A stretch of 42,757 nucleotides of DNA from Chloroflexota bacterium (lineage in GTDB: Bacteria > Chloroflexota > Anaerolineae > DTLA01), in NCBI GenBank assembly GCA_014874485.1, contig JADBJK010000034.1:1-42757 (forward strand), in the 5' to 3' direction. This document shows positions 14,597 to 26,001 of this stretch, piece after piece (position 1 is the first letter of the stretch; every line of letters starts with the position of its first letter). A model generated the notes under the pieces. The model did no database searches. It was not told where the DNA came from and was given only the letters and a program-made list of their open reading frames with translations. A program made the position numbers and the translations under genes.

Positions 14597-15649
14597 CTAC
14601 ACGACCGCCACCGTCCCGTCGCCGTCCACCACCTCGCCCACGACCCAGTAGGGCTGGTTCGCGTTCCGCAATTCCGCCTCCAGCGCCGCCAGCCGCTCGC
14701 GGGCGACGGCGATGAGCAGCCCGCCCGACGTTTCGGGGTCGTACAGCAGCAGTTGTGTTTCGTCGGGGATGCCCGCCGCGAAGGACACGTGGGGCGCGTA
14801 GAACCGCTCGTTGTTGTATGCGCCGCCGGGGAAAATCCACTTGGCCGCGTACTCGTGCGCGCCGGGCAGGAAAGGCAGCGCCTCCAGCACAAACCGCAGC
14901 CCCACGCCGCTGTTGGCGGCCATCTCCTGCGCGTGGCCCAGCAAGCCGAAGCCGGTGATGTCGGTGGCGGCGTGGACGCCCGCGGCCTGCATGGCGCGAG
15001 CGGCGGCCTGGTTCAGGCGCAACATGCTGGCGGTGGCGGCATCCACGTGGGCCGGGTCGGCAAGGCCCTGCTTCAGCGCCGTCGTGATGACGCCGACACC
15101 CAGCGGCTTGGTCAGCACCAGGACGTCGCCGACCTGGGCGGCACTCTTGGTAATCACCTTGTCGGGGTGCACCGTGCCGGTTACGCAGAGGCCGAACTTG
15201 GGCTCCTTGTCCTCCATGGTGTGGCCGCCCGCCAGCACCGCGCCCGCTTCGGCCACCTTGTCGCCCGCGCCGCGCAGGATGTCCTGGGCGATTTCGGGCG
15301 GCAGATTGGGCGGGAATGCGGCGATGCTCAGCGCCAGCAGCACCTCGCCGCCCATGGCCCACACGTCGCTCATGGAATTGACGGCGGCGATAGCCCCGTA
15401 GGTGTACCCGTCGTCCACCACCGGCGCGAAGAAGTCCAGCGTCTGGACGATGGCCAAATCGGGCGCCAGGCGGTACACGGCGGCGTCGTCGGCCTTGCCC
15501 AGGCCCACCAGCAAATCGGGAAACTGGGCTTCCCGGAACGTGTCTTTGAGTGGCTGCAGAACCTGCGCCAGGGCCTCAGGCCCCATCTTGCCCGCTCAGC
15601 CCGCGCACGAGGCTAGGGCCGTCAGGCGAATCTTCTCGCGTTCGCTCAT
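14597..15649 (-). CDS. selD: Selenophosphate synthetase (selenide, water dikinase), itself a selenoprotein
   Basis: Makes monoselenophosphate from selenide and ATP, the selenium donor for Sec-tRNA and selenouridine. The gene is read as 350 aa with an in-frame TGA at 15598-15596 decoded as Sec18. Codons before it (MSEREKIRLTALASCAG) and after it (AGKMGPEALAQVL) form one uninterrupted SelD N-terminus, and the Sec is followed three residues later by Lys21, the spacing of the catalytic Cys17/Lys20 pair in E. coli SelD. ATG 15649 has GGAG at 15660-15657; the next ATG (15586) would lose the active site. ATP-site blocks such as GKADDAAVY, GGHTMEDKEP and DPETSGGLL are intact. It is the last gene of the selenium operon. 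A stop codon with internal restart is the only alternative and is unlikely. Confidence 0.93.
15569..15585 (-). promoter_or_regulatory. Candidate bacterial SECIS hairpin in selD
   Basis: Within the coding region, TGGGGCC (15585-15579), loop TGA (15578-15576), GGCCCTG (15575-15569): five Watson-Crick pairs and two wobbles. The apical loop begins 17 nt after the Sec TGA and has a G at its second position, as expected for bacterial SECIS elements recognised by SelB. Confidence 0.55.
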
Positions 15650-23591: not shown

Positions 23592-24980
23592 ATGGCTGAC
23601 GAGAGCGCGTTGGAAGCACGCCTGCGCCAACTCCCCAGCGTGTACCGCCTGCTGCAGACACCCGAAGCGCAGGGGTGGGTGGAGACATTCGGGCACGAGT
23701 TGACCACCGAGGCGATTCGCGAGGCCCTGGACGAGGCGCGCGATCGCGTGTTGGCCGGGGAGGAGACACCCTCGGCGGCGTCGGTGCTGGCATCGGCGCA
23801 AGCGCGGCTGGAACGATTGGTAGCGCCGACGCTGCGGCGCGCCATCAACGCCACTGGCGTCATCATCCACACGAACCTGGGCCGCGCGCCGTTGAGCCGC
23901 GCCGCCCGCGAAGCGATGGAACTGGCCGCGCGGGGGTACACCAACCTGGAGTACGACCTGGCGGCTGGCGTCCGCGGGTCGCGCTACGTCCATGCCGTCG
24001 GGCTGCTCAAGCGGCTGACGGGGGCGGAGGATGCCCTCGTGGTCAACAACAACGCAGGCGCGGTGTTGCTGGCCCTGAGTACGCTGGCTGCGGGGCGAGA
24101 GGTCATCATCTCGCGGGGGCAGTTGGTGGAAATCGGGGGCGGGTTCCGCATCCCCGACGTGATGCGGCAAAGCGGCGCACGCCTGGTGGAAGTCGGCACG
24201 ACGAACCGCACGACCCTCAAGGACTACGCCGCGGCCATCTCGGACGAGACGGCCCTGCTCCTTCGTGTGCACACCAGTAACTTCCGCATCATCGGGTTCA
24301 CCCACCAGCCCAGCCTGGCAGAACTCGTGGAACTGGGCCGCAGCCATAGCCTGCTGATCATGGACGACCTGGGGAGCGGCACGTTGCTGGACACGGCGCA
24401 GTATGGCCTGGCCCACGAGCCGACGGTGCAGGAGAGCGTGGCAGCAGGGGCCGACGTGGTTACTTTCAGCGGCGACAAACTGATGGGCGGGCCGCAGGCG
24501 GGGTACATCGTCGGGCGGCGGGAACTCATCGCCCGCATGAGGACGCACCCGCTCACCCGAGCGCTCCGTGTGGACAAAGTGGCCATCGCAGGGATTGAGG
24601 CCACGCTGCGGCACTATCTGCTCAACGAGGCGACCCGCGAGATTCCCGTCTGGCGCATGATCGCGACGCCCGCCGAAGCGCTGCGAAAGCGGGCGCGTGC
24701 CTGGGCGCGACGGCTGAGGGCCGCGGGCGTGGACGCGACTGTGGTGGAAGGGCAATCCACCGTCGGCGGTGGCTCCCTGCCAGGCGAGACGCTGCCCTCA
24801 TGGCTGCTGGCCCTGGCCGTGCCTTCGCCCGATGGGTTCGCGCGCGCGCTGCGCATGGGCAAGCCCGCCATCGTCCCGCGCATTGAGGAAGACCGCGTGC
24901 TGTTTGACCCGCGGACGGTCCTGCCCGACGAGGACGAGGCGCTGGTCAAGGGCATCCTGGCGGCGTGGAGCGCGGCATAG
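23592..24980 (+). CDS. selA: L-seryl-tRNA(Sec) selenium transferase
   Basis: PLP-dependent enzyme of 462 aa that converts seryl-tRNA(Sec) to selenocysteyl-tRNA(Sec) using selenophosphate from SelD. Visible SelA blocks are the N-terminal LRQLPSVYRLLQ, INATGVIIHTNLGRAPLS, YTNLEYDLAAGVRGSR, VVNNNAGAVLLAL and the PLP site TFSGDKLMGGPQAGYIVG, whose Lys296 corresponds to Lys295 of E. coli. ATG 23592 has GGAGGG 4 nt upstream. Its presence indicates the bacterial Sec pathway, which supports reading the in-frame UGAs in this window as selenocysteine. selB and selC, often adjacent, are not here; the selA stop is one base from the end of a convergent gene. Confidence 0.96.
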   Translation: MADESALEARLRQLPSVYRLLQTPEAQGWVETFGHELTTEAIREALDEARDRVLAGEETPSAASVLASAQARLERLVAPTLRRAINATGVIIHTNLGRAPLSRAAREAMELAARGYTNLEYDLAAGVRGSRYVHAVGLLKRLTGAEDALVVNNNAGAVLLALSTLAAGREVIISRGQLVEIGGGFRIPDVMRQSGARLVEVGTTNRTTLKDYAAAISDETALLLRVHTSNFRIIGFTHQPSLAELVELGRSHSLLIMDDLGSGTLLDTAQYGLAHEPTVQESVAAGADVVTFSGDKLMGGPQAGYIVGRRELIARMRTHPLTRALRVDKVAIAGIEATLRHYLLNEATREIPVWRMIATPAEALRKRARAWARRLRAAGVDATVVEGQSTVGGGSLPGETLPSWLLALAVPSPDGFARALRMGKPAIVPRIEEDRVLFDPRTVLPDEDEALVKGILAAWSAA

Positions 24981-24981
24981 G

Positions 24982-25938
24982 CTACGGCTTGGCGAGCGAA
25001 TCCAGCCACGCGCGGATTTCGGGATCGTCGGCGAAGTCCGCGCCCAGCGTGATGGTCTTGCCGCTGTGCGAGACGACCTTCCCGGCCTCGTTGATTTGGA
25101 GAATCAACTGGCCGATCCACTCGCCCTGATACCCCGCCTGGACGAGAATCGTGCCATACGTCGGCTCGCGGAACGGCTCGGGCAGCAGGACGCCGGGGTT
25201 GCCGCCCACGATGGCCGCGATGCCCGGAACGCTCGCCGCGAGTTGCTGGTCCTGCTGGAAGCCCAGGTTGGAGCAGACGATGACGACATCGGCCTTGCCT
25301 GCCAGGTCCGACATCACGCGGCGCACGGCCTCTATGGGGTCGGCGACGAGCACCGGCACGCGGTTGTCCGGCGGGAGGAAGGCCAGCAGGTTCTTGCTCG
25401 TAACGCCGATGATGGCGATTCGGTGTCCGGCCATCTCCTTGATGACGTAGGGCTGCGCGAACAGGGCGTTGGTGCCGCCCGCGTACACGTTCGCCGAGAG
25501 CACCGCGAACCTGGCCTCGGCCATGCGCGCCTGGATGACCTCAGGCCCCCAGCGGAAGTCTTGGTCCCCCAGGGTCATGGCATCGTAGCCCAGGCGGTTC
25601 ATGCCCTCAATCATCACTGCGCCTTTGGTGGAAGCGGTGAGCGCCTGGTCGGTCGTGAGGGCGTTGCCGGCGTCCAGCAGCAGGACGTGCGGATACTGCT
25701 CCCGCACCTCACGGATGAAGGTGGCCCGACGGGCCAACCCGCCTTTCGGTGGCCTTCAGCCGCAGGGCTCGGTGAAGCCGCGCACGTCGTTGGTGTGCAG
25801 GATGACGAGGTCAAACGCCTGCGGGGCCTGGGTAGCCGTCGGGCTAGGGGCCAGGGTCGGGGCACTGCCCCCGCACCCGGACAGCAGCACAGCAGCGGCT
25901 ACAAGCAGCGCGATGGCACGGAGTATCGTTCTACGCAC
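24982..25938 (-). CDS. Selenocysteine-containing lipoprotein of the 5'-nucleotidase/metallophosphatase superfamily
   Basis: 318 aa with an in-frame TGA at 25758-25756 read as Sec61. Upstream codons give a lipoprotein signal (VLLSGC, Cys22), then DLVILHTNDVRGFTEPCG; downstream codons give RPPKGGLARRATFIREV, so the UGA falls inside one contiguous family motif where relatives, as I recall them, have a PCGC-x-GGLARRA pattern: Cys is replaced by Sec. Only the N-terminal metallophosphatase-like domain is present. Usual metal ligands are altered (N-D-x-H-G has become NDVRG, G-N-H-E has become GDQDF), so a redox rather than phosphatase role is possible. GTG 25938 has GAGGGGGAG upstream. Convergent with selA. 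Alternative: a pseudogene with a nonsense mutation, but both halves are intact. Confidence 0.82.
25722..25736 (-). promoter_or_regulatory. Candidate bacterial SECIS hairpin in the lipoprotein gene
   Basis: TGGCCC (25736-25731), loop GTC (25730-25728), GGGCCA (25727-25722): a perfect 6-bp stem. The loop begins 25 nt after the Sec TGA and opens with G. An alternative hairpin closer to the TGA (CC-GAAA-GG core) also exists. Confidence 0.5.
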
Positions 25939-25972
25939 GTTGGCTCCCCCTCGCCGGGATTCTATGGGGCGA

Positions 25973-26001
25973 ATCATACGCCAGCGCGGCGGGGATGTCA
26001 A
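25973..26001 (-). promoter_or_regulatory. Promoter of the Sec-lipoprotein gene
   Basis: A perfect TTGACA (26001-25996) and TATGAT (25978-25973) are spaced by 17 nt, 35 nt upstream of the GTG start. A dedicated strong promoter argues that the gene is expressed and not a relic. Confidence 0.75.

Follow-up and report, generated by a model that had tools for sequence, protein, structure and literature searches.

A predicted lipid-anchored UshA-like PCGU selenoprotein in Chloroflexota, carried on a phosphoesterase fold that lacks the canonical metal site

We describe here a gene, in a 42,757-nucleotide stretch of Chloroflexota DNA (the window), with an in-frame UGA that almost certainly encodes selenocysteine (Sec). 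The gene product is probably a Sec-dependent redox protein, exported and lipid-anchored, which is built on a dead phosphoesterase scaffold and belongs to the UshA-like PCGU selenoproteins. The features of the locus are collected in Table 1. The frame reads LHTNDVRGFTEPCG-UGA-RPPKGGLARRATF with the UGA as residue 61, and the read-through translation (UGA taken as Sec) has an N-terminal lipobox, LLSGC, followed by LVILHTNDVRGFTEPCGU-RPPKGGLARRATF. An earlier interpretation made from the letters alone (the sequence-only reading) had assigned the gene its own near-consensus promoter, and this is upheld by a match score of 11/12, where 0.3 such sites are expected by chance, and by retention of the element in both sister species.

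Table 1. Features of the selenoprotein locus and of the selenium genes in the window.
Feature	Coordinates	Strand	Remarks
Sec-containing UshA-like lipoprotein gene (predicted)	24982..25938	minus	GTG start codon at 25938; TAG at 24984-24982; product of 318 aa
In-frame UGA, putative Sec61, motif PCGU	25756..25758	minus	sole UGA in frame
SECIS-like hairpin TGGCCC-GTC-GGGCCA	25722..25736	minus	6-bp stem, GUC loop; first loop base 26 nt after the UGA
Sigma-70-type promoter TTGACA-17-TATGAT	25973..26001	minus	conserved in both sister species
Shine-Dalgarno-like sequence GAGGGGGAG	25944..25952	minus	upstream of the GTG
selA	23592..24980	plus	convergent with the selenoprotein gene, whose TAG lies one base away
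selD	14696..15628	minus	span per family-model match; own in-frame UGA (ASCAGU)

The two halves around the UGA behave as one protein, as had been proposed. Both fit a single 5'-nucleotidase fold, with PDB matches such as 4h1y covering residues 37-312, and the AlphaFold model of the read-through protein (pLDDT 94.1) is similar to CD73/UshA with a TM-score of ~0.8. A search of the protein returned no significant Pfam domain. Two genomes of the same genus also carry the UGA, in proteins 92% and 79% identical to that of the window, and dN/dS is ~0.15-0.21 over the 255 codons downstream of it, a range that points to purifying selection on the stretch after the UGA. A standard gene caller would end the gene at this codon, as would be appropriate for a pseudogene, a sequencing error or an ordinary stop followed by a shorter downstream gene. 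Such an origin is nonetheless highly improbable given that the UGA recurs in three genomes of the genus and in dozens of relatives (most of the genomes compared being metagenome-assembled), that the sequence beyond it is under apparent selection, and that it is accompanied by a conserved hairpin and replaced by Cys in a relative.

The sequence-only reading placed the UGA where the second Cys of a PCGC motif would be expected, and the homologues agree. The same UGA lies in the same motif region in 30/30 representative Chloroflexota Sec relatives, mostly as PCGU, with PCNTU and TCGU among the variants, and one Chloroflexota relative (L158), TEPCACDPAVGGLARRA, reads PCAC with its Cys exactly at the UGA column. 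Cys forms also occur in the alignment of Desulfobacterota proteins, as SCGC (L213), in which the Cys again aligns with the UGA column, and as CxxC (L207/L217). The earlier reading had staked its claim on the absence of homologues with neither Cys nor Sec at this position; one does exist (L186, PSGR), while the site is otherwise conserved, and it would therefore be described as nearly, not strictly, invariant. In some members the place of the first Cys in the CxU pair is taken by S, A, T or U; this partner Cys is thus not strictly conserved, and the Sec position appears to be the more conserved of the two. Ser or Ala replaces the first Cys in L200, L201, L220 and L186, with Sec kept except in L186, which is without both. 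Two relatives, L222:436-1563 (+) (G411:C35, Anaerolineales UBA2200) and L071:5611-6789, contain two in-frame UGA codons; one, L222, reads NUGUG (UxU for CxU), which might form a diselenide, the other reads GGUU, and the hairpins of both are strong (8 and 10 bp). The double UGA was seen in one genome only, the family's other five genomes having single-UGA copies.

Downstream of the UGA, the hairpin with a 6-bp stem and GTC loop that had been noted as SECIS-like proves to be conserved. A hairpin with a three-base loop starting with G stands at the same place relative to a GGxARR motif in 24/24 non-redundant genes, and in most of these the first loop base lies 26 nt past the UGA. Stem length in these 24 ranges from 6 to 10 bp and averages 7.25, where synonymous-codon shuffles average 2.19 (z 11.5), whereas a stem of at least 5 bp is present in just 1/69 non-UGA homologues and that of the Cys homologue is 4 bp. 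The paired positions covary: 95.2% of cells are paired, both sides have changed in 12 of them, and 0/500 shuffles reach this level; the sequences are related, and these counts are hence not independent, but the variety of compensated changes (CG to UA or GC, GC to AU or UA) argues against simple inheritance. The folding energy of the post-UGA stretch of the window, taken alone, is unremarkable (z -1.4), and the case for the hairpin is thus one of conserved position and covariation and not of plain folding energy. A search of the window against Rfam returned no family at its gathering score. In Desulfobacterota genes the loop mostly starts ~19-20 nt after the UGA, as compared to 26 nt in Chloroflexota, which suggests that the SECIS-like element has shifted place within one protein family.

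The genome also has the means to insert Sec. In addition to the selA and selD genes of the window, selB and selC are present elsewhere in the genome, in line with the expectation set out earlier. The end of selA does lie a single base from that of the selenoprotein gene, and selA is the neighbour in both sister species as well; because the two genes are convergent, they are not co-transcribed. Co-occurrence with selA is a weak test of Sec usage since selA is present in 322/400 Chloroflexota genomes. The selD of the window is a selenoprotein gene too (ALASCAGUAGKMGPEAL). It is the Cys at the site in the PCAC homologue, the conserved and covarying SECIS-like hairpin and the complete sel machinery that together support the UGA as a Sec codon, and insertion of Sec61 by the standard SelA/B/C/D route, with the SECIS hairpin just downstream, is strongly supported by sequence.

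The sequence-only reading had gone further and offered the gene as a new selenoprotein family missing from the common lists, and in this it was mostly mistaken. UshA-like CxU selenoproteins of COG0737 were reported in a table of the GOS survey of Zhang and Gladyshev in 2008 (PMC2398784), reappear in 2022 and 2026 reviews, and are covered by two NCBIfam models, NF041198 (UshA_like_PCGU) and NF049981 (UshA_like_Sel_2). The best NCBIfam match of the window protein is to the first of these (E 2e-47), at 161.9 bits against the curated cut-off of 275 bits for this equivalog; against the second it scores 52.5 bits, with a cut-off of 140 bits, and it has CxU rather than CxxU. It shares with NF041198 proteins, most sampled members of which use UGA, a PCGU at the same place, the same metallophosphatase-like fold and the loss of the metal site. 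The differences are that the 318-residue window protein matches only model positions 13-276, has no CXXCH and so lacks the C-terminal tetrahaem region of the model (positions ~346-519), falls in a separate Chloroflexota clade and has the longer UGA-to-loop spacing. The short, single-domain NF049981 model describes the same fold, and its CxxU spacing is found in a Chloroflexota relative (L033). Four C-terminal CXXCH motifs, scoring as Cytochrome_C554, are present in most of the over-cut-off Desulfobacterota proteins examined and absent from the Chloroflexota proteins, and short Desulfobacterota forms exist as well. Among the Desulfobacterota loci, UshA_like_PCGU proteins (L170-L199) are mostly fused to this cytochrome c554-like domain, small Desulfovibrio proteins (L165, L166) resemble the domain alone, and in tandem pairs (L211, L212) the gene directly behind a short PCAU copy is a long PCGU one that carries the tetrahaem domain.

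In a quick maximum-likelihood tree the Chloroflexota proteins form one clade (support 98) and the Desulfobacterota proteins another (98), with the conventional nucleotidases all on one side of a branch of support 99; with the root assumed to lie among the conventional enzymes, the Sec proteins would therefore be one lineage with two arms. A wholly new family could be argued from the missed cut-offs (0/400 sampled Chloroflexota genomes pass that of NF041198, as compared to 65/345 genomes from the phylum of a Desulfovibrio) and from a clade that stands apart and spaces its SECIS differently. However, motif, fold and best match all indicate UshA_like_PCGU, both Sec clades fall on the same side of the support-99 branch, and selenoproteins of this type were described in 2008, so that we regard a new family as improbable. 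On these grounds we would class the window protein as a broadly defined UshA-like COG0737 CxU selenoprotein (it has CxU and the UshA-like fold and, under the assumed root, groups with the NF041198 proteins apart from conventional nucleotidases), within what appears to be a distinct Chloroflexota clade or subfamily of the known PCGU proteins that lies below the curated cut-offs. Chloroflexota members may be among the marine matches of 2008.

The replacement of the usual metallophosphatase ligands, remarked on in the sequence-only reading, is extensive. The overall fold is that of UshA/CD73 (~20-30% identity over the domain) and of the SoxB thiosulfohydrolase, but the window protein is without the C-terminal nucleotide-binding domain, its metal ligands and catalytic dyad are replaced, and it contains Sec. 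Nine UshA residues (metal site and catalytic dyad) were scored from the alignment, and the window protein retains only D41; its changes include H43->R, D84->N, N116->D, H117->Q, H217->N and H252->N, and it thus lacks the di-metal ligands and His-Asp dyad of a 5'-nucleotidase. Between 0 and 4 of the nine are kept in 80 Sec/Cys-type proteins (0 or 1 in 47/80), as opposed to all nine in 32/38 conventional homologues, so that CxU and a lost phosphatase site occur together. The fold would have lost its di-metal phosphoesterase site and acquired a C-x-Sec pair in the loop that immediately follows the first metal motif.

It is conceivable, though unlikely, that the protein has remained a hydrolase or handles sulfur (as a SoxB-like thiosulfohydrolase or persulfide carrier), with Sec standing in for a metal ligand or bearing a sulfur atom. 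SoxB ranks among the better NCBIfam matches for this fold, the tetrahaem fusion of Desulfobacterota would equally suit oxidation of a bound sulfur compound, and a few members, including a paralogue in the same genome, retain four of the nine residues (D41, D84, H217, H252). Most members, however, retain two, one or none, and gene neighbourhoods that contain DsbD and thioredoxin-like proteins are indicative of thiol exchange. The second Sec copy in the genome of the window (G000:C86) directly follows a protein that combines several thioredoxin-like domains with a membrane part and itself adjoins an Fe-S protein gene. Clusters of an FeS protein, a thioredoxin-like protein and a DsbD/CcdA-type membrane protein beside a Sec UshA-like gene occur in G411, G409, G763 and G764, and one of the membrane genes reaches 107 bits with the DsbD_TM model, whose cut-off is 27; the arrangement was found in five Anaerolineae lineages, including the genus of the window. 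The FeS protein is of type PF04060 at L237, L241, L254, L268 and L270. The window copy has no adjoining redox gene and no conserved neighbourhood was found for it beyond its own genus; a sugar-nucleotide epimerase-like neighbour of stand-alone copies at four other Anaerolineae loci looked uninformative.

The redox role at which the sequence-only reading hinted is therefore likely, because of the metal-site loss in Sec/Cys proteins, the tetrahaem fusion, and the FeS, thioredoxin and DsbD-type genes beside paralogues. Carried over from these paralogues, to which the window copy is ~40% identical, the most likely activity of this exported, lipid-anchored protein is that of a selenol/thiol oxidoreductase outside the cytoplasm. 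Other Chloroflexota copies probably receive electrons from DsbD/thioredoxin modules, as their gene context would imply, and Desulfobacterota copies probably do so via the fused tetrahaem cytochrome domain. Whether this extends to the UshA-like CxU selenoproteins as a whole, such that the class comprises dead phosphoesterases turned extracytoplasmic selenol oxidoreductases with a tetrahaem arm in Desulfobacterota and a DsbD/thioredoxin arm in Chloroflexota, some having gone on to UxU and a possible diselenide, is in our estimation an even bet.

As far as we have searched, both the loss of the canonical phosphatase residues in Sec/Cys members and the DsbD-type/thioredoxin/Fe-S cluster of the five Anaerolineae lineages are new; no report of either was found in the literature searched, although they may still have been published. 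The Chloroflexota branch, often with several copies per genome, falls under current annotation cut-offs, so that annotation will probably truncate its genes at the UGA. The joint loss of the metal site and gain of CxU offers a reason for the presence of Sec, and a selenoprotein family that has been listed without a function since 2008 would thereby gain a concrete, testable role together with candidate electron partners.
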